Origin: Sporichthyaceae bacterium
GTDB lineage: Bacteria; Actinomycetota; Actinomycetes; Sporichthyales; Sporichthyaceae
Direction: 5' to 3'
DNA: 33,662 nt
Assembly (NCBI GenBank): GCA_036493475.1
Contig: DASXPS010000003.1
Span: 1 to 33,662 of the forward strand
The stretch's first letter is position 1. Each line of letters opens with the position of its first letter. The notes under the pieces were generated by a model. It was not told the DNA's origin, did no database searches, and was given only the letters and a program-made list of their open reading frames with translations. Both the position numbers and the translations under genes were made by a program. Positions 2,227-21,289 of the stretch are shown here, one piece after another.

Positions 2227-3317
2227 CGGTCACATCAGGCGGGGGCCCGTTGCGGGTTGTGCATGTCTTCGGCACGTTGAACCGCGGTGGCGCGGAGAGC
2301 GTGGCGTTGGACCTGTGCCGCAGCATGCCGACCGGCGAGTTCGAGCAGCACTTCTGGTTGTTGGGCAAGGAAAAAGGTGTGCTGGCCGACCTGTTCCAAC
2401 AGGCCGGTGCGGTGATCTCGCTGTGCCGATTGCGCCCTGCGGTCACCTTCGTGCCGCGGCTGTGGCATCGGTTGCGCGTGCTGCGCCCGAACGTGATGGT
2501 CGCCCACGTCAGCGTGGTCAGCGGGTTGATCCTGCTGGTCTCCCGGTTGTCCGGGGTGCCCATCCGGATTGCCCACATGCACAGCGACGGTGACGCCCGC
2601 GGCAACGATCTACCGCGACGGGCCTTCCGCGCCGCCATGCGATGGCTGATCAAGCACAACGCCACCGACGTGGTCGGGGTGACCAGCGGCTCGATCGCCT
2701 TCGCCGGCGGCGAGCCGCGCTACCGGGTGCTGCCCAACGGCATCGACTTCGCGCGGTACGCCGGTGTGCGGGTGGAGGGAACTGACGCGACGTCAGTGGG
2801 CCCGGTGCTCATGCATATCGGCCGGGCCGCGCCGGAGAAGAACCGGGCGTTCCTGTTGCCGGTGCACGACGCGGCCAACGAGATCACCCCCGGCACCACG
2901 CTGGTGCTCGTCGGCCCCGGCGGCAGCGATGACCTCGGCCCGTCTGCCGCCCAACGACCGGGTCTGGAACTGGCCGGGGAAACCCGCGAGGTGGAAAAGT
3001 ACCTCGCCCGCGCCGACGCGCTTCTGCTGCCCTCGCATTGGGAGGGCCTGCCCGGCGTGGTGCTGCAGGCACTGGCCGCGGGCGTGCCGGTGGTCGCCAA
3101 CGACCTGCCCAGCACCCGCGACATCGCCGCGAAGTACCCCGGCCTGACGGTCCTGTCGACCGACGCGGGCCCCGAGGTGTGGGCGGTGGAGGCGTTGCGT
3201 GCCGCCGCGCTGCCCCGGCAGGAACGTCGATCGATCTCCGAGGCCATGTGCGCATCGGAATACCAACTGGACCGCTACGCGCAGGCCTGGAGGGCGCTGT
3301 GGACGTCACGCGCATGA
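2223..3317 (+). CDS. GT4-family glycosyltransferase (GTG start)
   Basis: This predicted 364 aa GT-B glycosyltransferase probably acts in repeat-unit assembly. The start is placed at GTG 2223, which overlaps the preceding TGA (GTGA). It leads directly into the typical first strand and Gly-rich loop, VVHVFGTLNRGGAE (residues about 11-24). An upstream in-frame start at 2082 would overlap the previous gene by 145 bases and is rejected. The C-terminal domain shows LMHIGRAAPEKN and the E-x7-E donor segment EGLPGVVLQALAAGVPVVAND (about residues 273-293). The NRGGAE loop is common in EpsF/capsular GT4 enzymes. The sugar specificity is unknown. The stop overlaps the ATG of the Wzy-like gene (ATGA). 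Confidence 0.87.
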   Translation: MTVTSGGGPLRVVHVFGTLNRGGAESVALDLCRSMPTGEFEQHFWLLGKEKGVLADLFQQAGAVISLCRLRPAVTFVPRLWHRLRVLRPNVMVAHVSVVSGLILLVSRLSGVPIRIAHMHSDGDARGNDLPRRAFRAAMRWLIKHNATDVVGVTSGSIAFAGGEPRYRVLPNGIDFARYAGVRVEGTDATSVGPVLMHIGRAAPEKNRAFLLPVHDAANEITPGTTLVLVGPGGSDDLGPSAAQRPGLELAGETREVEKYLARADALLLPSHWEGLPGVVLQALAAGVPVVANDLPSTRDIAAKYPGLTVLSTDAGPEVWAVEALRAAALPRQERRSISEAMCASEYQLDRYAQAWRALWTSRA

Positions 3318-4741
3318 TCGGCCGGGGGACCGGCCGACGCGGCGGGTTGACGCTGTTGGTGGCCCTGGTCGGGCTGTTCTCCTGGCACTTCCCACTCAGT
3401 ATCGACTCTCCCGCGCGCACCGCGGCCATCGTCACCGGTGTATGGGCGCTGTGCTTTCTGGCGCTGTCGCGCAGTGACGCCGTGGGCAGTTACCGGCCGA
3501 ACGCCATGTACATGCTGGTGTTCGGGTTGTTCCACGTGGGCTTCCTGATCGCCACCGCGGCGCGTGGCACCGACGCACTGCACGACGTGGACAGCGGCTG
3601 GTTCTATCGGGGCTACACCCCGCAGGCGTTGCACCTGGTGATTCTCGGCATGGTCGCGTTCACCCTGGCCGCACAGCTGATGACCTGGCGATCCGGCCCG
3701 CTCAGCACGATCGTCCCGTCGAGCCTCGCCGGCCCGGACGCCGACCGCTACCGGCAGAAGCTGGCCACCGTCGGTCTGCTGGTCGAGGCGATCAGCCTGT
3801 TGATCTTCTACAAGGAGGTCGTCCAGGACCGCGGCGGTGGCCTGTTCTCCGGTGGCTACGAGCAGTTCTCTTCCTCGCTTCAGTCCTCCGGCAACTCCAA
3901 CGGCTATGCGACGTTGGGCATCGGCGTCGGCGCCATCTTCGCCATCGTGGCCGGCGACCGCGCGCGGCTGTGGGGGTGGGCGTTGTTTCTCGGCTACGCG
4001 ATCCCCGCGCTGCCCATGGGCAACCGCGGTGAGGTGCTGTTCCCGCTGATCCCGATGCTGATCGTGGAGGCCCAGCACGGCCGCAAAGTCCGCAAGCTGT
4101 GGACGACGCTGGGCGTGCTGCTCTCGCTGATCGTCATCGGCATCGTGCGAACCGGGCGGACCACCGGCTACTCGGTGCCCACCGGCAAGCAGCTGCTGAC
4201 CTCGCCGATGGACGCCATCGCCGAGATGGGTTACTCGCTGCGGCCCACCGTCGAGGTGCTCGGCTGGACCAGTCACGGCGAGGGGTATCGGCACGGCGTC
4301 ACATTGGTCGCGGTGCCGCTGCGGCTGATCGAGAAGCTGACCGGGTGGCACGGCGGCCCGCCGGTGCCGGACGACCGGTTGTTCAACGTCGAGGTCGCAC
4401 ACCGGGTCGGCCCGATCGGTGGGTCACCGGTGGGCGAGGGGTATTACAACTTCGGCCTGCTCGGCGTGCTGCTGACGATGGGCGCGATCGGGCTGTTCGT
4501 GGGCTGGCTCAATCAACGCCCGCTGCGCATGCTCGACGCCCGCGTCGCGTTGCTCGTGCCGATGATGGGCAACGTCCGCAACTCTTTCGCCCAGGTGCCC
4601 GCGCAGCTCGTGGTCATCGCGGTGCTGCTGGTCGTGGTGCGGGTGTGGTCCAAGCGCGGTCAGGTGCACGTTCCCGTGGTCAAGGGGGTGCGCCATGCTC
4701 ACGGCAGGCAAGTTCCGGTACGCAATCACGCTTGGGGCTAG
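3314..4741 (+). CDS. Wzy-type O-antigen/capsule polysaccharide polymerase
   Basis: This polytopic membrane protein of about 475 aa is the best candidate for the polymerase that joins lipid-linked repeat units on the outer face of the membrane. Hydrophobic segments alternate with short polar loops through the whole chain, starting with [13 protein letters not shown] near the N-terminus. A central [14 protein letters not shown] segment and a long loop near residues 290-390 match the layout of Wzy-family proteins, which share topology more than sequence. The start is ATG 3314, overlapping the preceding stop; a GTG at 3299 is also possible. The 3' end overlaps the flippase gene by 47 bases. The assignment rests on topology, size and neighbours. 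A WaaL-like ligase is the main alternative. Confidence 0.72.
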
Positions 4742-6476
4742 CACGCTGCAGGCGGTGCTCAGTTCGGTGACCGCGCTGATCGCCACACGCGATCTGGGGG
4801 CGAGCCAGCGCGGCCTGGTGGTCATCGGCATGACCATCGCCTCGATCTTCGGCTTGGTCGCGGGTTCGGGGACCGGCTCGGCCTACCGGTTGCTGCTGCC
4901 CAGCCGGGACCCGCAGCTCCGACGCCGGCTGGCCCTCGCGTTCACCTGGTGCTCGCTGCTCGGCACCGTCGTGGTGGTGCCCGCCGCGATGCTGGCCACC
5001 AAGCTCTCCGCGCCGATGATCGACCCGGGCCTGGGGACGCACCATTTCTTGTTCGCCACCGGGGTCTACACCGCCGCGTCGGTCGCGCTCATCCAGATTG
5101 TCGAGGCGCGCTTCGCCGATGGGCAGTTCCGCCGCGGCGGCATCGCGGGCGGCACCATGGCGCTGGGCGGTTTGATCGGCGTCATTGCCGCTCTGTGCTA
5201 CGACCGCTCCGCCGCGCTGGCCCTGTTCGGTCAGGGCGCGGGCATCCTGGTGGGTGCCGCCGTCGAGGTGTGGGCGCTGCGTCGGGACGGCCTGGTCGAC
5301 TTCGGCGTGCCGGCGCCGGGGGAGCTCTCGGCGCTGTGGAAGCGCGGCGCACCCGCACTCGGCTTCACCATCGGATCGGCGTTGGCCTTCCGCGCCGACC
5401 GGTACGTGCTCGGTGCCTTCGCGGGCCCCGCCGCCGTCGGCATCTACTCGCTGGCCGCCACCTTCGGTGAGGTACCACGTCTGCTCTACACCGCGGTCGC
5501 GCAGTGGTTCCAGCGGCAGGCGGCGCTGGGCCGCCGGCACGCACCGCTGTTCAAGGCGATTCTGCTGGCCTGCGGTATCGCGGCGGTGGTCTCGGTGCCG
5601 ATCGCGGTGGTCGGGTGGGTGCTGATCGTCCCGGTGTTCGGGTCGGAGTTCGCCGCCGGCCGCTCACTGCTGCTGGTGCTGCTCGTCGCCGAGATCCTGT
5701 TCGCGCCGTACCTGGTTGCCGCCCGCGGGCTGCTCGGCCGTGGCTGGATCAAGACCGCGGGCTTGCTGGGTCTGGCGGGCAGCGGCGCCTCCCTGGCCTG
5801 CTACGTCGTGTCGGCCCGGGCCGGCGGCGCGATGGGCCTGGCCCTGGGCAGCGGGCTGCTCTATTTGGCTCTTTCTGTCGCGTCCACCGTGCTGTTCCGC
5901 GCGCGCAGCGCACGCGACGACGCGCCGGCCGACGACGTTCGCACCGTCTCTGGAGGCTTCGCGATGGTCAAGCGCATCTGGAGGTGGGCTCGGTGCGCCT
6001 ACCTGAGGAAGACCGACCCGATCGCCGCGGCGCGTGCCATGGGCGTACGGCTCGGTGAGGGGTGCCGCATTCTCTCGATGACCGGGGGGACCTTCGGCTC
6101 CGAGCCCTACCTGGTGACGCTCGGCAATCACGTGCAGGTGGGCATCGGGGTGCAGTTCCTGACCCATGAGGGCGGGGTTTGGGTGCTCCGCGAGGAGTTC
6201 CCGGACATCGACATCATGGCTCCGATCACCGTCGGCAATAACGTGATGATCGGCATCGACGCCATGATCATGCCGGGCGTCACCGTCGGCGACAACGTGG
6301 TGATCGGCGCTCGCTCCCTGGTCACCCGCGACGTCCCGTCGAATTCCGTGGTGGTCGGCCAGCCGGCCCGGGTGATCTTGACGGTCGAGGAGTACCGCGA
6401 GAAGGCGCTGCGGATGGCGGTGCACATCCCGCCCGCGCGTAAGCGGGAGTACCTGCAGCACACCTACGGACGCTGA
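4695..6476 (+). CDS. Polysaccharide flippase (Wzx/MATE-like) fused to a hexapeptide acyltransferase
   Basis: This single 593 aa frame encodes two proteins' worth of sequence. Residues 1 to about 400 form a multi-spanning membrane protein of the oligosaccharide flippase type, which would move lipid-linked repeat units across the membrane. After a charged linker ([12 protein letters not shown]) the frame continues into a cytosolic left-handed beta-helix acyltransferase, with hexapeptide repeats such as [20 protein letters not shown] and [13 protein letters not shown] and the tail [10 protein letters not shown] (about residues 500-560). These match the WbbJ/maltose O-acetyltransferase type. An internal ATG at 5964 has a GGAGG Shine-Dalgarno 7 bases upstream, so a separate acyltransferase of about 170 aa could also be made. 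The gene overlaps the end of the polymerase gene. Confidence 0.82.
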
Positions 6477-6521
6477 ATCGCGCCGTTCCCACCACGCCGC
6501 ACCGCCCACCGAGGGGAACCC

Positions 6522-7643
6522 ATGGAAACCGCTGCGCCTGCCGTTCGCGGTAAGAGCTCGCGCCTGACCCAACTGGACGCGCTGCGTGCGCTGGCTGCGG
6601 TCGCGGTGATGAGCTATCACTACACCCACCGGTTCCCGCAGCTGTACGTGCCGTCGGTGACGCCGCTGTTCACCAACTGGAACCTGGACTACCTGGCGAT
6701 CTCCACGTTCTTCATGATCAGTGGCTTCGTCATCTTCATGACCGTCGAACGCAGCGCCCGGTTGCGCGACTTCGTGCTCTCTCGGCTGCTGCGGCTCTAC
6801 CCGATGTACGTGCTGGCCATTGCCATCACCTTCGTCGCCATGCACGTGTTCGGCCCGGCGAACCGTGCGGTGGGGTGGAAGACAGTACTACGTAACCTGA
6901 CGCTGTTTCAGAACTGGTTGGGCGACGGCGGCCGCAACGTGGACGGCGTCTACTGGACCATCGGCGTCGAGGTCAATTTCTATGTGCTGATCTCACTGGC
7001 GTTTCTGTTCGGTTGGCTGCGTGGCCGTCGACTCGGCGTCACCCTGGGCAGCTGGATCGTGCTGTCGTACTACCTCGAGTCGCACTGGGGCGAGTGGGTG
7101 CCGGGCAGCATGTACTGGACCCGGGGCTTGGACACCTGGTGGTCGCAGTGCTTCATCTCCGGCATCTGCTGCTACCTGGTGTGGAAGAACGGCGGTCGGT
7201 ACACCAAGGGAACCGCCGCCGGGCACATCGGTTCGGTCGTGCTGGTCGGCATGCTGCGCAACACCACCATGGCAATTCTGCTGATGGCGCTGATCCTGCT
7301 GATGAACCTGGCCGCCAACAAGCGGATTCCGTTCCTGGGCACCGGCATCCTGCCCAAGCTCGGTGTCTGCACCTACGCGCTCTACCTGCTGCACCAGAAC
7401 CTCGGCTACACGCTGATGCTGCACCTGATGCCGCACACCGGTTACTGGTTCGCGCTGGCGTGCGCCTACACGATGGCCATCGGTCTGGCGCTGCTCGGCA
7501 CCCACCTGTGGGAGGAGCCGGTACGCGCCAAGGTGCGCGCCAAGCTCAAGGCCACCAAGTTCTTCAGTCCGCTGCCGACCGCCCCGCGTCCGCGTTCGGA
7601 GAGTGCACCGGTTATCCCGGAGGGAGTCCACACCAATGACTGA
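6522..7643 (+). CDS. Membrane-bound acyltransferase (acyltransferase 3 / OafA-like)
   Basis: This 373 aa integral membrane protein belongs to the acyltransferase-3 family, which transfers acetyl or other short acyl groups to sugars during or after polysaccharide assembly. The N-terminus carries the family hallmark LDALRALAAVAVMSYHYTHR (about residues 18-37) with the motif His. Roughly ten hydrophobic helices follow, with the internal segment VYWTIGVEVNFYVLISLAF typical of the family. A clear GAGGGGA Shine-Dalgarno precedes ATG 6522. The last codons overlap the start of the next gene by 8 bases. Together with the two cytosolic acetyltransferases nearby, it suggests a heavily acylated polymer. 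Confidence 0.9.
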   Translation: METAAPAVRGKSSRLTQLDALRALAAVAVMSYHYTHRFPQLYVPSVTPLFTNWNLDYLAISTFFMISGFVIFMTVERSARLRDFVLSRLLRLYPMYVLAIAITFVAMHVFGPANRAVGWKTVLRNLTLFQNWLGDGGRNVDGVYWTIGVEVNFYVLISLAFLFGWLRGRRLGVTLGSWIVLSYYLESHWGEWVPGSMYWTRGLDTWWSQCFISGICCYLVWKNGGRYTKGTAAGHIGSVVLVGMLRNTTMAILLMALILLMNLAANKRIPFLGTGILPKLGVCTYALYLLHQNLGYTLMLHLMPHTGYWFALACAYTMAIGLALLGTHLWEEPVRAKVRAKLKATKFFSPLPTAPRPRSESAPVIPEGVHTND

Positions 7644-8262
7644 TCGACCCAAGGTGCGCGAGCTGGTGCTCGCCGACGTGCACCGGTTGACCGGCCGACG
7701 TTCCTGGTTCGACGTGGTCAAGCTGACGATGTTCGGCGAGGTCTACCGGGTCAACGTCGCCTACCGCATCGCCAGCGTCTACCGGAGCCGCCGTGCCCCG
7801 CACGCGAAGGTGATCGCGCTGCTGGCCCGGTTGTGGCTGCGCCGGCTGCGGCGCAAGCTCGGCGTCAGCCTGCCGTGCACCGCGAAGGTCGGGCCGGGCC
7901 TGCTGATCGGGCACGCCGGGGTCACCTTCATCAGCCCCGGCGCGACCATCGGGCGGGACTGCAACATCGCGCAGAACGTGACCATCGCGCCGGGTAAGGG
8001 CGAGCACAACGGTGGCCAGCCGACGCTGGGGGACCGGGTGTACGTGGGGCCCGGGGCGGTGATCTTCGGAGGGGTGACCATTGGCGATGACGTCGCGATC
8101 GGCGCCAACTCGGTGGTCACCCGGGACATCCCGGCCGGGTGCACCGCGGTCGGCGCGCCGGCCCGGGTGATGCCGGGCCGGGGGTCGAGCGACTGGGTGA
8201 ACCGGGTGTCCGAGCCGCGGCCGCGGATCGCCCGGCAGGCGACTGCGGCGGACCGTGTTTGA
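7636..8262 (+). CDS. Serine O-acetyltransferase-like hexapeptide acyltransferase
   Basis: This 208 aa protein has a helical N-terminus and a C-terminal left-handed beta-helix of the CysE/LbH-SAT type. Visible features are GPGLLIGHAGVTFISPGATIG, the loop HNGGQPTLGDRVYVGPGAVI, and the capping VVTRDIPAGCTAVGAPARV. CysE-like proteins in polysaccharide loci usually acetylate sugars rather than serine, and the operon context favours that here. The start is ATG 7636, preceded by GGAGG at 7619-7623 and overlapping the previous stop by 8 bases. The last codons overlap the GTG of the next gene. A true cysteine-biosynthesis role is less likely because no cysK is nearby. Confidence 0.85.
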   Translation: MTDRPKVRELVLADVHRLTGRRSWFDVVKLTMFGEVYRVNVAYRIASVYRSRRAPHAKVIALLARLWLRRLRRKLGVSLPCTAKVGPGLLIGHAGVTFISPGATIGRDCNIAQNVTIAPGKGEHNGGQPTLGDRVYVGPGAVIFGGVTIGDDVAIGANSVVTRDIPAGCTAVGAPARVMPGRGSSDWVNRVSEPRPRIARQATAADRV

Positions 8263-9463
8263 CACCGACGCCGGCACCCGGCCACGGATCATGATCGTGG
8301 CCACGGTGCCGGTGTCGCTCTGCACGTTCTTCGCCGGCCAGCCGCGCTTCCTCGCCCAGCACTTCGATGTCACGTTGGTGAGCTCATCGGGTGTCGAGGT
8401 GGCGCAGATCGAGGCCGGTGAGGGAGTGCCGGTACGCACCGTGGACATGACCCGACAGATCTCGCCGGGTCGAGACCTGCGATCGCTGCGCGAGCTCACC
8501 GGGCTGATGCGTGCCGAGCGACCGGACCTGGTGCACTCCTACACCCCGAAGGCCGGACTGTTGGCCATGCTGGCCGCCCGGGCGACCGGGGTGCCGCACC
8601 GGTTCCACACCGTGCAGGGCATGCCGCTGGTCACGGCGGGCGGACCGAAGCGGCTGATCCTGAACGCTACGGAGCGGGCCACGTACCTGGCGGCGACGCG
8701 GATCTTCTCGTCCAGTCACAGCCTGTGCGAGCTGATCCCCGGCACGTTCCCGGCCCGACCGCCGGCGGTGATCGGGGGCGGTTCGGTGAACGGCATCGAC
8801 GGGACCAGGTTCTCCCCCGAAGTGGTGTCCGAGGCCGCGCGCAGGCACCTGCGCGCGGAGCTGGACATCCCGACGGGGGACCGCGTGCTGGTCTTCGTCG
8901 GCCGACTGGTCGGTGACAAGGGCGTCACCGAGTTGTTGCAGGCTTTCGATGCACTGGCCGATCCGGCAACCACGCTGCTGCTGGTCGGTGCTGAGGAGCC
9001 GGCGCTGGATCCGCTGCCCGTCGCCACCCGGGAACTGATGGACCGACACCCGAAGGTGCGACTGGCCGGCTGGGCCACCGACGTGCGCCCGTACATGTCG
9101 ATCTCCGACGTGCTGGTGTTGCCCAGCTACCGCGAGGGCTTCGGCATGGTGCTGGCGGAGGCCGGCGCGATGGGCGTGCCGGTGATCGCCACGGACATCC
9201 CCGGCTGCCGGGACGTGGTGATCGACGGGGTCAATGGGTTGTTGGTGCCGCCGCGGGATGTCGGGGCGCTCACCGAGGCGTTGGGCCGCGTGCTCGGCGA
9301 TAACCTGTTGCGCGCGACACTGGCCGCGGACGTCCGGTCGTCCATGTTGGATCGCTACGACCAGCCCATCGTGCAGGCCGCGATCCTGGCGCTATACCGG
9401 CAGACGCTGGGGCTGGACGTGTCCGCGGGCGAGGCCGGAGAGCCGCTGCGCCGGGCTGCTTAG
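8255..9463 (+). CDS. GT4-family glycosyltransferase (CapM/PglA-like)
   Basis: This predicted 402 aa GT-B glycosyltransferase is the last gene of the rightward polysaccharide operon. The acceptor domain contains SYTPKAGLLAMLAARATGV followed by RFHTVQGMPL (about residues 90-125). That pattern is seen in enzymes that add a sugar to an undecaprenyl-diphosphate-linked N-acetylated sugar. The donor domain shows LVFVGRLVGDKGV and EGFGMVLAEAGAMGVPVIATD (about residue 293 on). GTG 8255 overlaps the previous gene by 8 bases; an ATG at 8291 is the alternative start. Its resemblance to PglA-type enzymes fits the PglC-like transferase and the aminotransferase encoded on the opposite strand. The exact sugar is not determinable. 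Confidence 0.86.
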   Translation: MFDTDAGTRPRIMIVATVPVSLCTFFAGQPRFLAQHFDVTLVSSSGVEVAQIEAGEGVPVRTVDMTRQISPGRDLRSLRELTGLMRAERPDLVHSYTPKAGLLAMLAARATGVPHRFHTVQGMPLVTAGGPKRLILNATERATYLAATRIFSSSHSLCELIPGTFPARPPAVIGGGSVNGIDGTRFSPEVVSEAARRHLRAELDIPTGDRVLVFVGRLVGDKGVTELLQAFDALADPATTLLLVGAEEPALDPLPVATRELMDRHPKVRLAGWATDVRPYMSISDVLVLPSYREGFGMVLAEAGAMGVPVIATDIPGCRDVVIDGVNGLLVPPRDVGALTEALGRVLGDNLLRATLAADVRSSMLDRYDQPIVQAAILALYRQTLGLDVSAGEAGEPLRRAA

Positions 9464-9476
9464 CGCCGGCGCAACG

Positions 9477-9530
9477 TCGTCCGGCGTTTCGGGGCATCAG
9501 TAGGGCTCGATAGCCCGAAACACCGGACGA
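9477..9530. terminator. Bidirectional stem-loop between convergent operons
   Basis: The arms 9477-9493 and 9514-9530 form a 17-bp stem with one mismatch and a 20-base loop. A competing 5-bp hairpin (GGGCT/AGCCC, 9503-9516) lies inside it. It sits in the 74-base gap between two converging genes, as expected for a shared intrinsic terminator. There is no strong T tract, which is normal in high-GC actinomycetes. Confidence 0.75.
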
Positions 9531-9537
9531 GGTGGGG

Positions 9538-10530
9538 CTACATCGTCCGGTACCCGCCCCGATGCAACACCCCACGCTCGCCGAGCTCCGCGACATCCTC
9601 GTTGTCGACGAGGAGCTCTTGCCAATACCGCAGAACCGTCGCCTCCCGGATCTCGTATTGCGGCGCGGTCCCCTGCGTCAGCCAATCCGCGATCATCAGC
9701 GGCTCGTTGAACCCGCACAACGCCCGCGCAGCCGTCGTCCCCGAACACCGCGCGTTGATCTCGAACACGTACGGCACCCCGTCACGCACCCGCAGCTGCA
9801 CGTTGCACGGGCCGTGTGGCTTGATCAGCTCCATCACATCGCGTACGCAGGCCTCGATGCCCTCGTCGCGGACCGAGAAGCACTTGTGGGTGTCGCCGTG
9901 TCGCAGCGTACGGCGCATCACGATGACGCCCTGGCACTTGTCGTCCAGGGTCACCGAGCCGCAGGTGTAGTCCGCACCGTCGATGTACTCCTGAGCCACG
10001 AAGTCGCAGAGGTTGTCGATCGCGTCCAGTTCGGCGCGGGAGCGGATCGCATAGACATCGGCCGAGCAGCCGCCCTCGCGCCGCTTGAGGATGAAGGGGT
10101 ACGCGGGCAGGATCGCGTCGGCCGGGTAGTCGGCCATGTCGACGGTGTACGGCACCGGGATGCCGCCTGCCCGCAACGCGGTGTAGGTCCGGTACTTGTT
10201 GTCGGCAATGGCGACAACCTCGGGCGAGGAGACCACCGGGTAGACGCCGGCCGCGAGGAACTCATCGACGGCGTCGGACACGACCGCGAGTTCCGGGTCC
10301 AGGCCGGGGAAGAAGATGTCCACGCCCTCGGCAGAGCAGATCTCCAGCACCCGGTTCACGAAGTCGAAGGAACGTGCCATCGGGATTGTGTATGCAGTGC
10401 CGGTCGTGTACATGCCCGCGCCCAGTGGGCTGCTGTCCAGCGCGACCACCCGGTATGAGCCCGGGGCCAGGGCCTTGATGATGCTCTGCCCGACGGCGCC
10501 ACCGGCGCCGGAGACCGCGATTGCTGTCAT
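9538..10530 (-). CDS. ATP-grasp enzyme (carbamoyl-phosphate-synthase-like ligase)
   Basis: This 330 aa protein has the ATP-grasp architecture: a Rossmann-like pre-grasp domain (SGAGGAVGQSIIKAL, residues 7-21), an ATP-binding lysine strand (FILKRREGGCSADVY, about 146-160), an adenine-side segment QEYIDGADY, and the metal-ligand strand YVFEINARCSGTT (about 254-266, Glu257 and Asn259). Family members activate a carboxylate as acyl phosphate and join it to an amine or thiol. The start ATG 10530 has a GGGGGAA Shine-Dalgarno. Upstream in-frame codons would run through the aldo/keto reductase gene and are rejected. It is the last gene of the leftward operon. Joining an amino acid to an amino sugar made by the aminotransferase is plausible but unproven. 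Confidence 0.85.
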   Translation of the reverse strand: MTAIAVSGAGGAVGQSIIKALAPGSYRVVALDSSPLGAGMYTTGTAYTIPMARSFDFVNRVLEICSAEGVDIFFPGLDPELAVVSDAVDEFLAAGVYPVVSSPEVVAIADNKYRTYTALRAGGIPVPYTVDMADYPADAILPAYPFILKRREGGCSADVYAIRSRAELDAIDNLCDFVAQEYIDGADYTCGSVTLDDKCQGVIVMRRTLRHGDTHKCFSVRDEGIEACVRDVMELIKPHGPCNVQLRVRDGVPYVFEINARCSGTTAARALCGFNEPLMIADWLTQGTAPQYEIREATVLRYWQELLVDNEDVAELGERGVLHRGGYRTM

Positions 10531-10550
10531 TACCGTTCCCCCGTGTGTCC

Positions 10551-11438
10551 TCAGGCCGCCGAGGCCGCCGGATAGTCCATTGGCACCGTGTCCGAGGCGG
10601 TGATCTGGTTGGGGAAGTCCCGCCGGATCCACTCCACGTCCTCGACGTCCATTGCCCAGCCCAGCGCACCCAAGTTCTCCGCCAAGTGCTCCGGGGTCGC
10701 GCTCTTGCAGATCACCACGACGTTGCGCTGGGAGATCAGCCAGTTCAACGCGACCTGCGTAGGGGTGCGCCCGTAGCGCTGGGCGATGTCCCGAATCATC
10801 GCGGGCACCGGCAAGTGGCCGGCCTGCAGCGGACGCCACGCGACGAGCATCACGTCGTTGCTCCGGGCGTGCTCGACCACACCGCGTACCTCCGGCTCGC
10901 GGTAGCGCACGTTGTAGTGCACCTGGTTGCAGACCAGCCTGGCGGCAGAGTGTCGCTGCGCCTCGGCAAATCGACGGGGCGTCAGGTTGGCGCCACCGAT
11001 GTGACGCACCATGCCCTGCTCGATAAGCGCGTTGAACCCACGCATTGCCTCGGCGATGTCCATGCCGGGCTTCGGATAGGTGTGCATGAGGTACAGGTCG
11101 ATATGGTCGACGCCCAACTTCTTCAAGCTGTTCTGCGCGGCGCGCATGATGCCGTCGTAGGTCTGGTTGACCGCGGAGACCTTGGTGGCGATGACGAACT
11201 CGGCGCGGTCCCGGCCGGCCAGAGCGGCGCCGAGGAGTTCCTCCGCGTGCCCGGCTCCGTAACCCTGCGCGGTGTCGAAGTGCCGGATGCCCGCGTCCAT
11301 CGCCCGGTTCAGCGCGAAGATGTGCTCGCCGTCCCGGCTGTGATCGGCCTGCCAGCTACCGCCGCCGACCTCGGAGAGCCCGAAGCCGTAGGCAGGCAGG
11401 GAGAACCCGGAATTGAGGGTCTTCCACGGGATCCTCAT
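10551..11438 (-). CDS. Aldo/keto reductase
   Basis: This 295 aa TIM-barrel NAD(P)H-dependent oxidoreductase of the AKR superfamily has the full catalytic tetrad visible: Asp55 and Tyr60 in FDTAQGYGAGHAEELLG, Lys86 in FVIATKV, and His119 in DLYLMHTY. Length is normal for the family. The start ATG 11438 is preceded by an AGAGAGG Shine-Dalgarno. The stop is 20 bases from the ATP-grasp start and the upstream sugar-transferase gene ends 41 bases away, so it is part of the leftward operon. The family acts on many carbonyls. Reduction of a keto-sugar intermediate, or of a small precursor for the ATP-grasp enzyme, is inferred from context only. Confidence 0.88.
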   Translation of the reverse strand: MRIPWKTLNSGFSLPAYGFGLSEVGGGSWQADHSRDGEHIFALNRAMDAGIRHFDTAQGYGAGHAEELLGAALAGRDRAEFVIATKVSAVNQTYDGIMRAAQNSLKKLGVDHIDLYLMHTYPKPGMDIAEAMRGFNALIEQGMVRHIGGANLTPRRFAEAQRHSAARLVCNQVHYNVRYREPEVRGVVEHARSNDVMLVAWRPLQAGHLPVPAMIRDIAQRYGRTPTQVALNWLISQRNVVVICKSATPEHLAENLGALGWAMDVEDVEWIRRDFPNQITASDTVPMDYPAASAA

Positions 11439-11479
11439 GCGCGTGCCTCTCTGTCGTGCCCGATGACGTAGCTCACGGA

Positions 11480-12169
11480 TCACCCGTCCGCCTCCACGGT
11501 CGCGACCGGTAGGACCTCGCCCAGCGCGGCACGCGGACTCGGGAAGCCGGGGTTGATCCCGCCCGTTCCGACGATGCCGCCGCGGCACAGCACCGCGAGC
11601 ACGGTGCGCAGCAGGATTTTCAGGTCCAGGCTCAGCGAGCGGTGCTGGATGTACCACAGGTCGAGTTCGATGCGCTCCGGCCAACTGATTGCGTTGCGGC
11701 CGTTGATCTGCGCCCATCCGGTCAGGCCGGGACGCACCGTGAGGCGGCCGCGTTCCCGGCTGGAGTACATGGCGACCTGCTCGGGCAGGGTGGGTCGCGG
11801 ACCGATCACACTCATCTGGCCGCGCAGGATGTTCCACAACTGGGGCAATTCGTCCAGGCTGGCGGCCCGCAGTAGTCGGCCGGCGGTCGGCGTACGGGCG
11901 GCGTCGCTCTCGCCCGCGAACTTCTCCGCGCGCATGGTGCGGAATTTGGCCACCTGGAACACGCGGCCGTCACGGCCGGAGCGTGGCTGGCGGAACAACA
12001 CCGGGCGTCCCATCGTCAGCATGATGACCGCGGCCACCAGCACCAGCAACGGCGCCAGCAGGGCGGCCGCGAGCAGCGCGGTGATCACGTCGAACACCCG
12101 GCGCGCGATGCATCCGCTGCGCCGTACGTTGATCGTGTCGGTCTCTGGACGTGCTTGGTTGTTCGCCAT
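11480..12169 (-). CDS. PglC-type phosphoglycosyl transferase (initiating sugar transferase)
   Basis: This 229 aa monotopic membrane enzyme would start repeat-unit synthesis by moving a sugar phosphate from a UDP-sugar to undecaprenyl phosphate. It has one N-terminal hydrophobic re-entrant segment (about residues 28-52), the KFRTM motif at 75-79, the catalytic Asp-Glu pair at 106-107 in SLDELPQLWN, then MSVIGPRP and RPGLTGWAQINGR. The absence of a multi-helix N-terminal region makes it the short PglC type rather than the WbaP/WcaJ type. Start ATG 12169 has an unusually G-rich Shine-Dalgarno (GGGGGGGAA). The neighbouring aminotransferase suggests a diamino- or amino-deoxy sugar substrate. Confidence 0.93.
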   Translation of the reverse strand: MANNQARPETDTINVRRSGCIARRVFDVITALLAAALLAPLLVLVAAVIMLTMGRPVLFRQPRSGRDGRVFQVAKFRTMRAEKFAGESDAARTPTAGRLLRAASLDELPQLWNILRGQMSVIGPRPTLPEQVAMYSSRERGRLTVRPGLTGWAQINGRNAISWPERIELDLWYIQHRSLSLDLKILLRTVLAVLCRGGIVGTGGINPGFPSPRAALGEVLPVATVEADG

Positions 12170-12239
12170 GGTTCCCCCCCGAGAACTGCGAAATATCGGT
12201 GCTGAAGCGGTTTGTGTTGTGCTCGGTGCTGACGGTGCC

Positions 12240-13373
12240 TCAGAATCCCAGGGCCGCCCGTACCGCGTCGATGACGGTGCTCACCTCCTCGTCCCGCAGG
12301 GCTGATCCGCTCGGCAGCGTCAATCCGGTGGAGAACAGGTTTTCCGCGGTCCCGTCGACGAAGGCCCGCGCACCGGAGAACACCGGCTGCATGTGCATGG
12401 GCTTCCAGAGGTGACGCGCCTCGATGTCTTCCTCGGCCAGGCCCTTGATCACCGTGTCGGCGGAGATCGGGCACCGGGTGGGGTCCAGGGTGATGCAGGT
12501 CAGCCAGCAGTTGTCCTCGCGGTCACTACCCATCCCGGTACGACCGAGGAAGCGCAGGCCAGGGATGTCGGACAACCCGAGTACGTACTGAGCACGGATC
12601 TCCCGACGGCGGGCGATCATCGAGTCCAGCCGGCTCAGCTGCGCGCGGCCCAGCGCGGCGAGCAGGTTGGACAGCCGGTAGTTGTAGCCGACCTCGGTGT
12701 GCTCGTAGTGCGGCACCGGCTGACGGGCCTGGGTGGACAGGTAGCGTGCCCGGGCCAGCAGCGTCAGGTCGTCGGACAGCAGCATGCCGCCGCCGGAGGT
12801 GGTCATGATTTTGTTGCCGTTGAACGACAGCGCGGCGGCGCGGCCGAAGCTGCCCGCGGGCTTGCCGTGCTTCGACGCGCCGAGGGCCTCGGCGGCGTCC
12901 TCGATGAGCGGGATGCCGTGGTCGGCGAGTACATCGACCAGGGACGGATAGTCCACGCAGCGGCCGAACAGGTCCACCGTCATCACCGCGGCCACCGGGA
13001 TGCCCTCGGCCTGCAGGCTGTTCACCGCGGTCAGCAGTAGTTCGGGGGAGACGTTGCCGTCCTCGGCCAGCGCGTCCACGAAGACCGGGCTGGCCCCGGT
13101 GTAGACCACGGCGTTGGCCGACGCGGCGAAGGTCATCGTGGGCACCACGACCGCGGTGCCGCGTTGGGCCCCGACCTCGAGCAGGGCCAGGTGCAGCGCG
13201 GCGGTCCCGGAGGACAGGGCCAGGGCACCGGCGACGCCGCAGCGCTCGGCGATCTCGTCCTCGAACGACTCCACGTGCGGGCCCAACGGGGCCACCCACC
13301 CAGAGCGCAGCGCATCGAGGACGAATTGTTCCTCGACATCCGAGATGTCGGCTTTCGACAGATGAATCCGCAT
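12240..13373 (-). CDS. DegT/DnrJ/EryC1-family sugar aminotransferase
   Basis: This 377 aa PLP-dependent aminotransferase would convert a 4-keto- or 3-keto-nucleotide sugar to an amino sugar. Visible features are the SGTAALHLAL phosphate-binding segment (55-64), PTMTFAASANAV (78-89), the PLP-contacting Asp159 in LIEDAAEALGA, and the Schiff-base Lys188 in SFNGNKIMTTSGGG. It resembles PglE/LegC-type enzymes, and pairing with a PglC-like transferase and a PglA-like glycosyltransferase fits a bacillosamine-like sugar. No 4,6-dehydratase (PglF type) is present in the window. It is the first gene of the leftward operon, with a 350-base upstream region that must hold its promoter. The Shine-Dalgarno (GGCGGT) is weak. 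Confidence 0.92.
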   Translation of the reverse strand: MRIHLSKADISDVEEQFVLDALRSGWVAPLGPHVESFEDEIAERCGVAGALALSSGTAALHLALLEVGAQRGTAVVVPTMTFAASANAVVYTGASPVFVDALAEDGNVSPELLLTAVNSLQAEGIPVAAVMTVDLFGRCVDYPSLVDVLADHGIPLIEDAAEALGASKHGKPAGSFGRAAALSFNGNKIMTTSGGGMLLSDDLTLLARARYLSTQARQPVPHYEHTEVGYNYRLSNLLAALGRAQLSRLDSMIARRREIRAQYVLGLSDIPGLRFLGRTGMGSDREDNCWLTCITLDPTRCPISADTVIKGLAEEDIEARHLWKPMHMQPVFSGARAFVDGTAENLFSTGLTLPSGSALRDEEVSTVIDAVRAALGF

Positions 13374-13723: not shown

Positions 13724-15511
13724 ATGTTTCACGAGTTTTCCCGGCGGGGGGGTCGGCTGGCCCGTCGACCGGCGACGTTGGGGCTCCTTTCGGCGGTCGG
13801 TTTGGCCGGGGTGTGGCTCGGGCTGACGGCCGTGCTGGCCCGGGCTCATCTGGAGCACGCGGCCGCGGACGCGTCGGCGATGCGGGCGCACCTCAGCGAC
13901 GGCAACCTGCCCGCAGCCCGGGCAGCGGCCGCCGACCTGCGTCTGCAGGTGGCCAGGGCGCATCACTGGACGGGCGGTCCGGTATGGGCGGCCGCGGCCC
14001 GGGTGCCGTCCGCGGGTGACCCGCTGCGCAGCGTGCGGGGCATCGCCGCGGCGCTGGATCAGCTGGGCGCCACTGCGTTGCCCCCGTTGCTGAACGCCGG
14101 CGCCAATCTGGACCCCACCACCGTGCGCACCGCGGACGGTGCGATCGACGTGGACCGGTTGACTTCGGTGGCGTCCCCCCTGCACACCGCTTCGACGGCC
14201 TTCGCCGCGAGCGCGGCCGCGGTTCGCGCCCTGCCGGGCAGCACCTGGTTGCCGCCGGTGAACGCAGCCCGGGCGGACCTGCTCACCGAATTGACGAAGA
14301 CCGCGGCCACTGCGCGCAGCGCCGCGGCCACCGCGGGGATCCTGCCCGAGTTGCTGGGCGTCGACGGCACCCGCACCTATCTACTCACTTTCTGCAACGA
14401 CGCGGAGGCGCGCGGCACCGGCGGCCTGCCCGGTGCGTTCATGGTTGCTTCGGTGCGCGATGGGCACATCGCCTTCCAGCACTTCGGCGGCGACCGCGCG
14501 CTGACCGGGGCATCCGCGAACGTCAACTTCGGGCCGGACTACGACCAGCTCTACGAGGACTCGGGCACCACGACGCTCTACGGCAACGCGAATTTGGGAC
14601 CGCATTTCCCCTACGCCGCACAGATCTGGGCCTCGATGTGGCAGCAGCGCTTCGGTCAGCGGGTGGACGGGGTGATCGCGCTGGACCCGACCGTGCTCAG
14701 CTATCTGCTGGCGGCAACGGGCCCGGCGAAGCTGCCGGACGGCTCGGTGGTCAGCGCGAGCAACGTAGTGCCGCTGACCGAGCGCGACGTCTACGCGCGT
14801 TACCCCGATGCGTACGGCCCGCGTGGCGATGCCGCCCGCCGGGCCTACCTGGGCGCGGTTGAGGAAGCGGTCAGTCAGCGGATCCTGGCACCGGGTGCGG
14901 ATGGCAAGAAGCTGCTGTCCGCGTTCGAGCGGGGGGTGACCGAGCGCCGACTGTTGGTGTGGAACTCGAACCCGGCGGTGCAGCGCGATCTGGAGACCAC
15001 CCCGGTGGCCGGGGTGATCCCCCGGACGAGCGCCCCGTACGCCGGGTTGTCCATCGTCAACGAGGGTGGCAACAAGCTCGACTACTACCTGGACCGGTCA
15101 TTGACCTGGCAGCGCACCGGCTGTGGTGCACAACGGGCGGTCACCGTCACCATCCGACTGACCAACAACGCACCGCCCACCGGGCTGTCCGACGTGGTCA
15201 CTTACCGGCACGACCGACACGGTTACCCGGTCAAGCGGGGGGACAACCGATTGACCGTCAGTTACTTCGCCACCAACGGTGCGCTGATGAAATCGGTGAC
15301 ACTGGACGGCAAACCGTGGTTCGCCCGGTCCGGTGCCCAGTTGGGGCACCCGGTGCTCACCGTGGACGTGGAAATGCCGCGGGGCACCACGCGCACGGTG
15401 GTGCTGCACCTGCTGGAACCCGCCGGCGGTGACGCCGCACCGATCGTGTTGCACCAACCGTTGGTACGGCCGTTGGCTGTACACCTCGACGACCAGCAGT
15501 GCGGACGGTGA
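13724..15511 (+). CDS. DUF4012 membrane protein of polysaccharide loci
   Basis: This 595 aa protein has an Arg-rich N-terminus, one membrane helix (about residues 19-40) and a large extracytoplasmic region. The region contains the DUF4012 signature: LLGVDGTRTYLLTFCNDAEARGTGGLPGAF, split around residues 208-238. The family occurs next to exopolysaccharide genes in actinobacteria and has no established biochemical role. By position it may assist export, anchoring or assembly of the polymer outside the membrane. ATG 13724 has a G-run just upstream. The 3' end overlaps the phosphatase gene, so the two are probably co-transcribed. Confidence 0.85.
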   Translation: MFHEFSRRGGRLARRPATLGLLSAVGLAGVWLGLTAVLARAHLEHAAADASAMRAHLSDGNLPAARAAAADLRLQVARAHHWTGGPVWAAAARVPSAGDPLRSVRGIAAALDQLGATALPPLLNAGANLDPTTVRTADGAIDVDRLTSVASPLHTASTAFAASAAAVRALPGSTWLPPVNAARADLLTELTKTAATARSAAATAGILPELLGVDGTRTYLLTFCNDAEARGTGGLPGAFMVASVRDGHIAFQHFGGDRALTGASANVNFGPDYDQLYEDSGTTTLYGNANLGPHFPYAAQIWASMWQQRFGQRVDGVIALDPTVLSYLLAATGPAKLPDGSVVSASNVVPLTERDVYARYPDAYGPRGDAARRAYLGAVEEAVSQRILAPGADGKKLLSAFERGVTERRLLVWNSNPAVQRDLETTPVAGVIPRTSAPYAGLSIVNEGGNKLDYYLDRSLTWQRTGCGAQRAVTVTIRLTNNAPPTGLSDVVTYRHDRHGYPVKRGDNRLTVSYFATNGALMKSVTLDGKPWFARSGAQLGHPVLTVDVEMPRGTTRTVVLHLLEPAGGDAAPIVLHQPLVRPLAVHLDDQQCGR

Positions 15512-16143
15512 TCGTGGAACAGGACAGTCGCGGTGAGTTCCGTGTGCTTTACGTCTGCACCGGCAATATCTGCCGGTCCCCATTCGCCGAGGTGCTCACC
15601 GCACACCTGCTCGCCCAGCACGGCCTGGCCGCGGTGGTCACTGTGAGCAGCGCGGGTACCGGGGCCCTGGTCGGGCATCCGATGCATCCGGCGAGCCAAC
15701 TCGAAGCGGTGCGTCGGGGCGTGCCCGAACCGTGGGTGGACGTTTTCGCAGCCCGGCAGTTGGGCCGGCGCATCGTCGGTGCCGCTGACCTGATCCTGGG
15801 CGCCACGCCGGCCCATCGTGCCGAGGCGGTGCGCATCTGGCCGCGCGCGCTGCCGGTGGCCTTCACCCTGCTGGAGTTCGCCCGGCTGGCCGCGCTGGTG
15901 AAGCTGTCCGGGCTGCCTGTCGACCCGGTGGACCGGGCCGGGGCGTTGGTGGCCGCCGCCCGCGCGCAGCGGGGGATGGCGCCCGGCGGTGGCCCGGACG
16001 CGGACACGATTCCGGACCCCTACGGCGGGCCTGCCGAGGCGCACGGCACCGCCGCGGCCATGGTGGCCGCGGCGGTGGACGCGATCGTGCGCGTGCTGGC
16101 CCCGGCTACGGATGGGGCGGGGCGGTCGGCCCGAACCCGGTGA
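15508..16143 (+). CDS. Low-molecular-weight protein-tyrosine phosphatase
   Basis: This cytoplasmic phosphatase of the Wzb/LMW-PTP family has 211 aa. The catalytic P-loop CTGNICRS begins at Cys17 (C-x5-R-S). The C-terminal general-acid region is TIPDPYGGP with the Asp-Pro pair. In Wzy-type loci such enzymes dephosphorylate the tyrosine kinase that controls chain length. No such kinase is in the window. It is longer than the usual 140-160 aa because of an insertion in the middle (about residues 110-160). The start is placed at GTG 15508, which overlaps the DUF4012 stop (GTGA). GTG 15499 and 15514 are possible. Its 3' end overlaps the convergent Hsp70-like gene by 38 bases. Confidence 0.88.
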   Translation: MIVEQDSRGEFRVLYVCTGNICRSPFAEVLTAHLLAQHGLAAVVTVSSAGTGALVGHPMHPASQLEAVRRGVPEPWVDVFAARQLGRRIVGAADLILGATPAHRAEAVRIWPRALPVAFTLLEFARLAALVKLSGLPVDPVDRAGALVAAARAQRGMAPGGGPDADTIPDPYGGPAEAHGTAAAMVAAAVDAIVRVLAPATDGAGRSARTR

Positions 16144-17890
16144 ACCGGGGCGCCTTCGGCTTGGCCGGAACCGCCGGGGCGTCATGGAACTCGGTGGACC
16201 CCGACGATGTGTTGTTCGCCGGTGCCGCCGCAGGCGCGGCCGGTGCCGGCGCGACCGGTGCGGCCGGCGCTCGCTGCGGCTGTTGTGCCGGACGCAGGGC
16301 GGTCCTGGTTTCCGGGGCCCGCCGCGGGGCCGCCTCGTCGGTAAGGGTCCGGGTTGCCCGGGTGGCCGCGGAGCTTCCCAGCGCCGGCCGGCTGTACGCA
16401 GCGCGCGGTGCGGGCCGGGTCAGCGCGGCCGGGGCGGAACCCTGAGCGGCCGCGCTCGGCGTCGGTGCGATCGCCGCGGCGGCATTGGGTCCGCCCACGA
16501 TCGGTGCGGCCTGCGGCCGGTCCTCCTGCAACTGCACTGTCTGCGCCGCCGGGGGGGCGTGCCGACCGTGCATCGGATTCAGCCCGTACAGCCAACCGCC
16601 GACCGCGGTGGCGGCCGTGAGCCCGACGACCAGTGCACTGCGGACCAGACGGGCGCGGCCACCGGAGCGGGCGGCCGGCACCGGCCGCACCAGTTCGAGG
16701 ACCTCGGCCTCGGGTCGGGCCGGCGCGGGGATCACCAGGGGTAGGTCGTCGCGGGTGGGTTCGTCATCTTCCTCGTCCCGGGCCACCGCCGCGACCGGCT
16801 CCGGTCGGGGCCGGGCGGCCACCGCCGCACCGAGCGCCACCGCCAGGGTCGGATCCAGGTCGCGGTCCAACCGCACTCCGGAACCCAGGTGGGCGGACAG
16901 CGCCTGGGTCACCAACGGAATCCGAGAGGAGCCGCCGGTGAGCAGTAGATGGGTGATCTCGTCCTCGGCGCCGAGCGAATCGAGCGCGGCGTCCAAGACC
17001 TCCACAGTGGCGGCAATGGCCGGGGAGATCATCGTTTCGAACTCCGCGCGGGTCACCCGCACGCTGGTGTTCAACGAGCCGAGCAGCACCGGCACGGTGG
17101 TCGCCGTGTCGACGGACAGCGCCTCCTTGGCGTCTACGCACTCCTGGCGCAGCCGGGCCAGAGCGGTGGTGACCATCTCCTCGCTCGGGTCCAGGCTGAC
17201 GTTGTCCGCGCCGAGGCTGTCCAGCACGTGCGCCAGGATCGCGTCGTCGAAGTCGATGCCGCCGAGGTCCGCCAGTCCCACCGGGCGGCCCACCGGGCGG
17301 AATCGCCCGTCGGGTGTCACGCGCAGCAGCGAGGCGTCGAAAGTGCCCCCGCCCAGGTCATAGACCGCCAGCAGCGCGTCCTCGGGTAGCCGGCCGGTAC
17401 TCGCGAAGGCGATTGCCGCGGCTTGCGGCTCACTGAGCAGGTCGACGTTGTCCAGCCCCAGGTCGGCCAACGATCGGGTGAGCAACTGGAGCTTGTGCGG
17501 CCCCCAGCCCACCGGATGGGTGACCACGATCCGCTCCGGGCCGCCGCCCTGACGCAGCGTCACCTGACCTACCACCCAGCTGATCATGCGGGCGGCCAGC
17601 GAGTGGGCGTGGTGGCGGGCGGCCTGTGCGCCGTTGCCGATGAGCAGCGGGGTCTCGTCACCGATGCGTCGTTTGAACCGGCGGACCACCCAATCGGGAT
17701 CGGTCAACGCTCGGCGTTCGGCGGCCTCGCCGACCAAGAACTCCCCGTCCGGGCCCAGATAGGCGACGGTCGGCATGGTGGCCGCCCGCGAGCCCAGTGG
17801 GACCGCGACCGGCGGTTCCTCGCCGACGGCGACGGCCGCCGCGGTGAACGTGGTCCCCAGATCCACGCCCAATACGTACTGTGCGCTCAT
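16106..17890 (-). CDS. Membrane-anchored Hsp70/DnaK-like ATPase without substrate-binding domain
   Basis: This 594 aa protein has an actin-fold ATPase (residues 1 to about 360) with phosphate-1 loop GVDLGTTFT (8-16), phosphate-2 loop VYDLGGGTFDASLL (176-189) and adenosine motif LLLTGGSSRIP (315-325). A linker with DDLPLVIP (381-388) resembles the Hsp70 interdomain linker. It is not followed by a beta-sandwich substrate-binding domain. Instead there is a basic stretch, a single membrane helix (about 417-435) and roughly 155 residues of Ala/Pro/Thr-rich, probably disordered and extracytoplasmic sequence. Start ATG 17890 has an AAGGGG Shine-Dalgarno. It is divergent from iniB. It may couple ATP binding in the cytosol to the envelope. 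A classic chaperone role is unlikely. Confidence 0.88.
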   Translation of the reverse strand: MSAQYVLGVDLGTTFTAAAVAVGEEPPVAVPLGSRAATMPTVAYLGPDGEFLVGEAAERRALTDPDWVVRRFKRRIGDETPLLIGNGAQAARHHAHSLAARMISWVVGQVTLRQGGGPERIVVTHPVGWGPHKLQLLTRSLADLGLDNVDLLSEPQAAAIAFASTGRLPEDALLAVYDLGGGTFDASLLRVTPDGRFRPVGRPVGLADLGGIDFDDAILAHVLDSLGADNVSLDPSEEMVTTALARLRQECVDAKEALSVDTATTVPVLLGSLNTSVRVTRAEFETMISPAIAATVEVLDAALDSLGAEDEITHLLLTGGSSRIPLVTQALSAHLGSGVRLDRDLDPTLAVALGAAVAARPRPEPVAAVARDEEDDEPTRDDLPLVIPAPARPEAEVLELVRPVPAARSGGRARLVRSALVVGLTAATAVGGWLYGLNPMHGRHAPPAAQTVQLQEDRPQAAPIVGGPNAAAAIAPTPSAAAQGSAPAALTRPAPRAAYSRPALGSSAATRATRTLTDEAAPRRAPETRTALRPAQQPQRAPAAPVAPAPAAPAAAPANNTSSGSTEFHDAPAVPAKPKAPRFTGFGPTAPPHP

Positions 17891-18312
17891 CGAGCCTGCC
17901 CCTTCCCTCGCACGCCCATCTGAATTGATCAGGACGGGTCGGGTCGCCCCGGGGGTGGGAAAGATTCTTTGACCCCTCCCGCAGTCAAGATCGGCTCCGC
18001 CGTCCCGGGGGTGGCTCGGACACCCGGGGATCGCCCCCATCTCCGGCGTCTTCGCAGGTCAGCGTCCTACAATGTGACGTTTGTCAGGGGTCGGCGGGGT
18101 TTGCGCGGCCTTGGTACTCCTGATTCGTCAAGCAACTTATGGGGTGTTTGTTACGGATGGTGCTTTTGGGACTGGCCTTCGATCCCCTAACGATTCCCTG
18201 ACGCAGGGGAGTTTTCCCCGATCCGCGGGGTGGCGCCGCGCTCCTAGCTTTCTGGCCATGGCGGTCCGTAACCCGACCGTCCGAGGGATCAACGACACGA
18301 AGGACGACGGCC
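17891..18312. promoter_or_regulatory. Divergent hsp70-like/iniB intergenic region
   Basis: This 422-base non-coding region lies between divergent genes. Besides the dyad near the Hsp70-like gene it holds TACAAT (18068-18073, a -10-like hexamer without a good -35 on the plus strand). A perfect dyad TGAC-GTTT-GTCA (18075-18086) follows immediately. Close to iniB are two adjoining hairpins, CCCTG-ACG-CAGGG (18196-18208) and GGGGA-GTTT-TCCCC (18206-18219). The two hairpins share bases and are mutually exclusive. Short ORFs here show no coding character. Confidence 0.5.
17961..17988 (-). promoter_or_regulatory. Candidate promoter with overlapping dyad for the Hsp70-like gene
   Basis: On the minus strand TTGACT (17988-17983) and AATCTT (17966-17961) are separated by 16 bases, about 70 bases before the gene start. 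A dyad TTGAC-N10-GTCAA (17969-17988) covers the -35 element and the spacer, as an operator would. The assignment is by eye only. Confidence 0.4.
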
Positions 18313-21273: not shown

Positions 21274-21289
21274 GGTGAGCAGACCGAGC

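Follow-up and report, generated by a model that had tools for sequence, protein, structure and literature searches.

In the bacillosamine-type priming pathways of Campylobacter jejuni (PglFEDC) and Bacillus subtilis (EpsCNML), a PglE-type aminotransferase and a PglC-type sugar transferase work toward priming with N,N'-diacetylbacillosamine (diNAcBac), as described in the accessible part of PMC10653937. In Neisseria, the PglC-PglD-PglB2 set, which forms Und-PP-GATDH, has an ATP-grasp function in place of the acetyltransferase: PglB2, called an "ATP grasp/phosphorglycosyl-transferase" in the portions of PMC11130364 and PMC6959607 available, is responsible for GATDH. C. jejuni also uses an ATP-grasp enzyme, Cj1438, for amide formation on a surface glycan, and the phosphatase Cj1435 then strips the ligated group of a phosphate (PMC11800379, available in part). 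Here we describe a four-gene operon in a 33,662-nucleotide stretch from a Sporichthyaceae bacterium (assembly GCA_036493475.1, contig DASXPS010000003.1, positions 1 to 33,662; the whole stretch is called the window below). The operon is likely a bacillosamine-type sugar-priming module in which an ATP-grasp ligase takes the slot of the acetyltransferase (PglD), and it would supply the sugar with which a cell-surface polymer begins.

Four minus-strand genes span positions 9538-13373; in order of transcription they are as follows.

12240-13373, minus strand: PglE-like sugar aminotransferase (DegT), 377 amino acids (aa), first in the operon (PF01041, 304 bits)
11480-12169, minus strand: PglC-like small phosphoglycosyltransferase (PGT), 229 aa (PF02397, 205 bits)
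10551-11438, minus strand: aldo/keto reductase (AKR), 295 aa, of the short 2,5-diketogluconate-reductase type (PF00248, 178 bits)
9538-10530, minus strand: single-domain ATP-grasp carboxylate-amine ligase, 330 aa, last in the operon (PF02655, PF15632, and PF21360)

The genes are separated by only 70, 41, and 20 bp, the genes on either side lie on the opposite strand, and the GC content at third codon positions (GC3) is 0.88 to 0.91, comparable to that of neighboring real genes. They form one operon, as the initial annotation had proposed; family scores, spacing, and codon use rule out chance open reading frames (ORFs). Two gene boundaries carry a qualification: a gene caller puts the possible true PGT start at 12097, and the mechanically called AKR ORF extends to 11837. 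The GC content and GC3 of the operon resemble those of its surroundings and thus give no sign of recent transfer.

The first two genes resemble the C. jejuni enzymes closely. The best PDB match of the aminotransferase is 1o61 (2.4e-69), which like 4ztc is C. jejuni PglE; an NGNKIxTTSGGG stretch is shared, and alignment places the catalytic lysine at K188. Against the LegC model TIGR04181 it scores 326.6 bits, under the cut-off of 420. The PGT is closest to 8e37 (8.5e-46), an N,N'-diacetylbacillosaminyl-1-phosphate transferase (PglC), with which it shares NGRNAISW; it also has D106-E107 and a PRP motif. Thus, both the PglE-type C4 aminotransferase and the PglC-type small PGT of a bacillosamine-type (Pgl/Eps) priming pathway are present. 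Compared with PglFEDC and EpsCNML, the operon lacks a PglD/EpsM-like gene and the window lacks PglF, and there are an ATP-grasp enzyme and an AKR instead. Since a PglD-type 4-N-acetyltransferase is required for diNAcBac itself and none is found in the operon, we do not class the operon as a diNAcBac pathway.

Relatives of the aminotransferase (40 to 67% identical) occur in 19 other genomes, making 20 of 393 genomes of the class with our own (E up to 1e-70), and we fetched the loci of 13 of the 19 and scanned them with sugar-gene models. A PglF-like dehydratase accompanies the aminotransferase relative (49 to 67% identical to the window's) in 12 of the 13, two by weaker matches, and a PGT does so in 11, within one gene of the aminotransferase in 10. 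This PglF-like, PglE-like, and PGT neighborhood is that of a bacillosamine-type priming set-up, comparable to those of C. jejuni and B. subtilis (PMC10653937, the part available). What varies is the acylating gene. A hexapeptide model matches it in six loci, and the PglD N-terminal domain was found in all four of those scanned for it (L126, L128, L131, and L134); in two others (L125 and L133) it is a GNAT/FemAB protein. In one locus, L129 of another actinomycete (genome G374), an ATP-grasp gene and a HAD gene take the slot: positions 4381-11047 encode, in order, PglF, PglE (55% identical to the window's), a polysaccharide pyruvyltransferase, a PglC-like PGT, the ATP-grasp enzyme, and the HAD hydrolase, so that the ATP-grasp gene stands where several relatives have PglD. 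The L129 enzyme is no more than a distant relative of the window ligase (27% identity over the match), which argues that ATP-grasp enzymes probably entered the PglD slot more than once. Gene identities, operon layout, PglE/PglC homology, and this slot comparison can all be read directly from sequence.

The window ligase is a member of the PRK12767/NF009402 family: it scores 268.9 bits against the NCBIfam model NF009402, "carbamoyl phosphate synthase-like protein" (cut-off, 218), and has K149, E257, and N259. Its AlphaFold model (pLDDT, 90.5) is nearest in fold to 2pn1 (Z, 31.0), annotated as a carbamoylphosphate synthase large subunit, and next to the amide ligase PylC (Z, 28.0). True CarB consists of two ATP-grasp halves and has about 1000+ residues; with 330 aa and one ATP-grasp domain, the window enzyme is not CarB, and "CarB-like" is an annotation name only.

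Matches to the ligase occur in 33 of the 393 class genomes (E up to 1e-12, our own included), two others being 50% or more identical, and in none of four other genomes of the family at the same threshold; only one of these four has an aminotransferase relative (E up to 1e-30), 35% identical over part of its length. We took further relatives from a search that gave 8 loci. A plasmid tblastn search yielded 84 records under 60% identity, mostly Sinorhizobium, one of which was inspected, and a sequence-pattern search of genome contigs gave 41 matches, none of them a relative. Six low-GC loci were read from plain ORFs. The six closest relatives (42 to 59% identical) belong to Amycolatopsis bartoniae, Jiangella muralis, Phytoactinopolyspora limicola, a Mycobacterium sp., and metagenome-assembled genomes (MAGs) of Cyclobacteriaceae and Thermoanaerobaculia; the contig of the Thermoanaerobaculia MAG ends within the ligase gene, and the other five have complete flanks. 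A DegT aminotransferase lies within 5 kb of the ligase in four of these five, a PGT in none, and an AKR in one (Phytoactinopolyspora, 29% identical to the window AKR). Among all 37 ligase loci, many of which have flanks of only 1.5 kb, nine have a DegT gene and five an adjacent PIG-L deacetylase; PIG-L had one match among control loci. In the PIG-L loci, the ligase may acylate an amine that the deacetylase exposes. Such amine makers near ligase relatives, together with a fold near 2pn1 and PylC, support the assignment of the window ligase to an acylating role.

The PIG-L loci (L005, L042, L044, L046, and L060) show clusters of a PIG-L deacetylase, an ATP-grasp gene, a PHP-type gene, and a GT2 gene; in L005 and L060 the PIG-L protein is fused to response-regulator domains. 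Mycobacterial glycolipids carry N-acylated amino sugars, as locus L075 might make. The available part of a mycobacterial glycolipid/kansosamine paper (PMC4403928) contains neither "carbamoyl" nor "aminotransferase."

We propose the following pathway. A UDP-GlcNAc 4,6-dehydratase would make the UDP-4-keto-6-deoxy sugar, from which the PglE-like aminotransferase would make UDP-2-acetamido-4-amino-2,4,6-trideoxyglucose (UDP-QuiNAc4N). The ATP-grasp enzyme would activate a carboxylic acid with ATP and link it as an amide to the amino group; judged from gene content, the ligase probably acylates the 4-amino group of UDP-QuiNAc4N. The acid would most likely come from the AKR, which might, for example, reduce a keto acid to a hydroxy acid; this is the weakest step. 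All substrates are inferred, as are the identity of the acid, the AKR role, and the order of the ATP-grasp step relative to the step that follows. The candidate dehydratase is encoded on a contig of the same genome, C210, that is separate from that of the operon: the first half of a 722-aa protein (L081, positions 1820-3988) is a PF02719 dehydratase domain that shares 62 to 65% identity with the catalytic domains of PglF in L126, L129, and L131. Its second half is another epimerase-type domain, and the transmembrane part is apparently missing. This fusion gene adjoins genes for a UDP-sugar dehydrogenase and a Wzz/kinase.

The best PDB matches of the PglE- and PglC-like proteins, the slot comparison, and the PglB2 precedent lead us to favor a priming module with a ligase in the PglD slot. 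As in Neisseria, aminotransferase, PGT, and ATP-grasp functions occur together, and the ATP-grasp is linked to a PGT and a C4 aminotransferase; PglB2 has its PGT and ATP-grasp fused, whereas here they are separate genes with the AKR between them. Lacking the fusion, the window enzymes "work like" PglB2 rather than being PglB2. The precedent nonetheless overturns the view in the initial annotation that the ligase is a nonstandard partner for such genes (as far as the available portions of the Neisseria papers go), and the further suggestion made there, that the ATP-grasp enzyme joins an acid to the new amino group, is probably correct in light of the PglE- and PglC-like genes and L129.

Several observations weigh against this interpretation. 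No UDP-GlcNAc 4,6-dehydratase (PglF) was found in the window. The likeness to PglB2 is one of described function, not of compared ATP-grasp domain sequences, and in the remaining 4 of the 13 aminotransferase-relative loci no acylating gene was recognized. The closest ligase relative, that of A. bartoniae (59% identical), has no aminotransferase nearby and no recognizable sugar locus, nor was sugar context seen in 17 ligase relatives of the f16 clade (mostly with short flanks). The AKR is tied only weakly to the pathway, by its operon position. Finally, a hexapeptide transferase encoded at 7603-8262 is a rival for the acylating step, as it could acetylate the amine.

The hexapeptide gene belongs to an operon that lies to the left of the four-gene operon, tail to tail with it; a gene encoding a DUF4012 protein and another encoding a low-molecular-weight phosphatase lie to the right.

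20-9463, plus strand: convergent polysaccharide operon, from Pfam matches
7603-8262, plus strand: hexapeptide acyltransferase, nearest to serine O-acetyltransferase models but below their cut-offs
15499-16143, plus strand: low-molecular-weight phosphatase (PF01451, 61.5 bits)

The polysaccharide operon encodes a UDP-sugar dehydrogenase (truncated where the contig begins), three GT-type glycosyltransferases, Wzy, a Wzx-hexapeptide fusion, an acyltransferase-3, and the hexapeptide transferase. This content, with Cj1438 as an ATP-grasp precedent (PMC11800379, the part available), could be read to mean that the ligase amidates a glycan carboxylate, namely, a uronic acid made through the dehydrogenase, with a small amine, and that the 7603-8262 enzyme acetylates the 4-amino sugar. 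We consider this very unlikely: the ligase shares its operon with the aminotransferase rather than the dehydrogenase, and the ATP-grasp gene of L129 sits in the PglD position. The hexapeptide protein not only falls short of the serine O-acetyltransferase models nearest to it, but also lacks a Pfam match to PglD_N at 1e-3 and scores under the NeuD/PglB/VioB cut-off. Cj1438 itself, according to the available text of PMC11800379, has a domain called TupA-like, which is another ATP-grasp group, and acts on the carboxyl of glucuronic acid; in the window it is probably the sugar that carries the amine, and the ligase has no phosphatase gene next to it.

If the ligase serves as the acylating enzyme of a priming module, the place of the AKR has still to be weighed. 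AKR-family enzymes have an Asp-Tyr-Lys-His tetrad, which is present here (D55, Y60, K86, and H119), and the nearest PDB entries are 6kik and 5dan (about 5e-50). At E up to 1e-40, no match other than our own was found among the 393 class genomes; a search of the phylum found matches in 57 of 396 genomes (E up to 1e-32, our own included). The best relatives are 39 to 45% identical and all belong to one family, f52; modeled sugar-gene families were found in none of seven fetched loci of these relatives (12 listed genomes), several of which are on short contigs. With these loci and the one AKR found near five close ligase relatives, the link of the AKR to the pathway is weak, and it is possible, if doubtful, that it is a chance passenger concerned with general carbonyl detoxification and that the pathway consists of the other three genes. 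Its location between the PGT (41 bp away) and the ligase (20 bp away) argues otherwise, as does its restricted distribution, which is not that of a common housekeeping gene of the class.

A direct role in sugar chemistry seems unlikely to us: the AKR would reduce a nucleotide sugar, either at the stage of the 4-keto intermediate or at a keto group once the sugar is complete, and the operon would yield a pair of related sugars or one that is modified further. The shared operon would suit such a role, and NDP-deoxysugars of antibiotic pathways are substrates of AKR-family enzymes; most nucleotide-sugar C4 reductases, however, are SDR proteins, the nearest kin of the window enzyme are short 2,5-diketogluconate-reductase-type AKRs, and none of the 13 aminotransferase-relative loci has an AKR match.

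The four-gene set as a whole was seen in none of the examined loci of ligase, AKR, or aminotransferase relatives, which come from part of the matching genomes. Conservation of the four-gene neighborhood, which the initial annotation had offered as a check, is thus rejected, given also that a PGT gene was found near none, and an AKR gene near one, of the five close ligase relatives with complete flanks. Its concern that reductase and ligase genes might occur elsewhere without polysaccharide genes holds for the AKR, in all seven loci, and for the ligase in one of five (Amycolatopsis), the other four being in DegT loci.

A partner that does recur beside the ligase is a phosphatase. In all five close relatives with complete flanks, a metallophosphoesterase gene adjoins the ligase or is one gene away. 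The A. bartoniae locus (L076, positions 3151-9592) has MlrC, FAA hydrolase, FAD-linked oxidase, and Fe-S (CCG) genes, followed by the ligase and the metallophosphoesterase; the ligase/phosphatase pair therefore occurs outside sugar loci too. For a broader survey we took in L004-L006, L024, L029-L046 (part), L051-L062, L072-L080, and L129 and left out G177 and G042, both ligase-search matches. In 33 of the 36 nonwindow loci, a phosphatase-family gene is next to the ligase or one gene from it, and these genes represent five unrelated folds: metallophosphoesterase (n = 7), PHP (n = 7), the inositol-monophosphatase family (n = 17, one clade), HAD (n = 1), and low-molecular-weight phosphatase (n = 1). 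The exceptions are L006, L077 (contig end), and L078. Because the seven phosphatase queries were drawn from the same loci, so that their source loci match by construction, and because 17 of the 33 cases are one lineage, for which the Pfam check covered L053 alone, what can fairly be claimed is the recurrence, next to members of this ligase family, of phosphatases of five unrelated folds. Pfam supports the PHP neighbors in L080, L059, L046, and L005 and gives no match at 1e-3 in L060; those of L042 and L044 were outside the Pfam scan. HAD-looking neighbors in L006 and L007 are incomplete, have no Pfam match, and were not counted. As a control, other loci totaling 318,760 bases were searched with the same queries; apart from the phosphatase of the window itself, a single match turned up.

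The window ligase, which exceeds the family cut-off and has the family structure 2pn1 as its best fold match, differs from its closest PRK12767 relatives in having a long branch and no adjacent phosphatase gene. In a midpoint-rooted tree, for which the program warns of long branches, it is sister to the Amycolatopsis ligase (95/95), with branch lengths of 1.02 versus 0.16. The sole match of the seven queries in the window is the low-molecular-weight phosphatase, 5 kb from the ligase and in a different operon. The Amycolatopsis metallophosphoesterase found no match in our bacterium's own genome or in one other genome of the genus, while both positive controls matched; this negative concerns that protein alone, and the genome must hold other phosphatases.

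By analogy with the Cj1438/Cj1435 pair, the ligases of these relatives may use a phosphorylated acid, with the partner phosphatase then stripping the phosphate; the window operon perhaps uses a different donor, supplied by the AKR. Carried further, PRK12767-type enzymes would be ligases of a phospho-acid (for example, phosphoglycerate) with a phosphatase partner; the window would have lost the partner and gained an AKR whose product, a hydroxy acid with no phosphate, would be ligated to yield a 4-N-hydroxyacyl amino sugar, and an actinobacterial polysaccharide would start with this sugar. We offer this extension tentatively and think it quite unlikely as it stands. All six of the closest ligase relatives, but not the window enzyme, have an arginine in the loop that follows the ATP-binding lysine. 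We considered it as a mark of a phosphorylated substrate and dropped the idea, since the residue does not track phosphatase pairing: Sinorhizobium (PHP pair), L035 (metallophosphoesterase pair), and further relatives that have phosphatase neighbors also lack it, and L043 has glycine at that position.

Other genes of the window include several fusions and tandem arrangements. The Wzx-type flippase of the polysaccharide operon (4695-6476) is fused to a C-terminal hexapeptide acyltransferase domain. A single gene at 26975-29536, adjoined by pantothenate-pathway genes, combines a NadB-like FAD-binding/fumarate-reductase-like part with quinolinate phosphoribosyltransferase domains. Two tandem genes, at 19435-21273 and 21146-22765, encode dynamin-like GTPases; close by, the opposite strand carries an Hsp70-like gene (16106-18040).

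We found no paper that combines an ATP-grasp enzyme with bacillosamine and none on an ATP-grasp/phosphatase pair in amino-sugar clusters, although the latter search was narrow and does not prove that the pairing is unpublished. Replacement of the acetyltransferase by an ATP-grasp enzyme is already known from Neisseria; the operon is therefore a variant and not a new type of system. If our interpretation is true, the PglB2 idea, in which an ATP-grasp enzyme replaces PglD, extends to actinomycetes in the form of separate genes, and with the ligase encoded by itself, its step could readily be assayed in isolation. The recurrent phosphatase is a testable hint about the acyl donor of amide-decorated sugars, perhaps including the pilin glyceramide of Neisseria.

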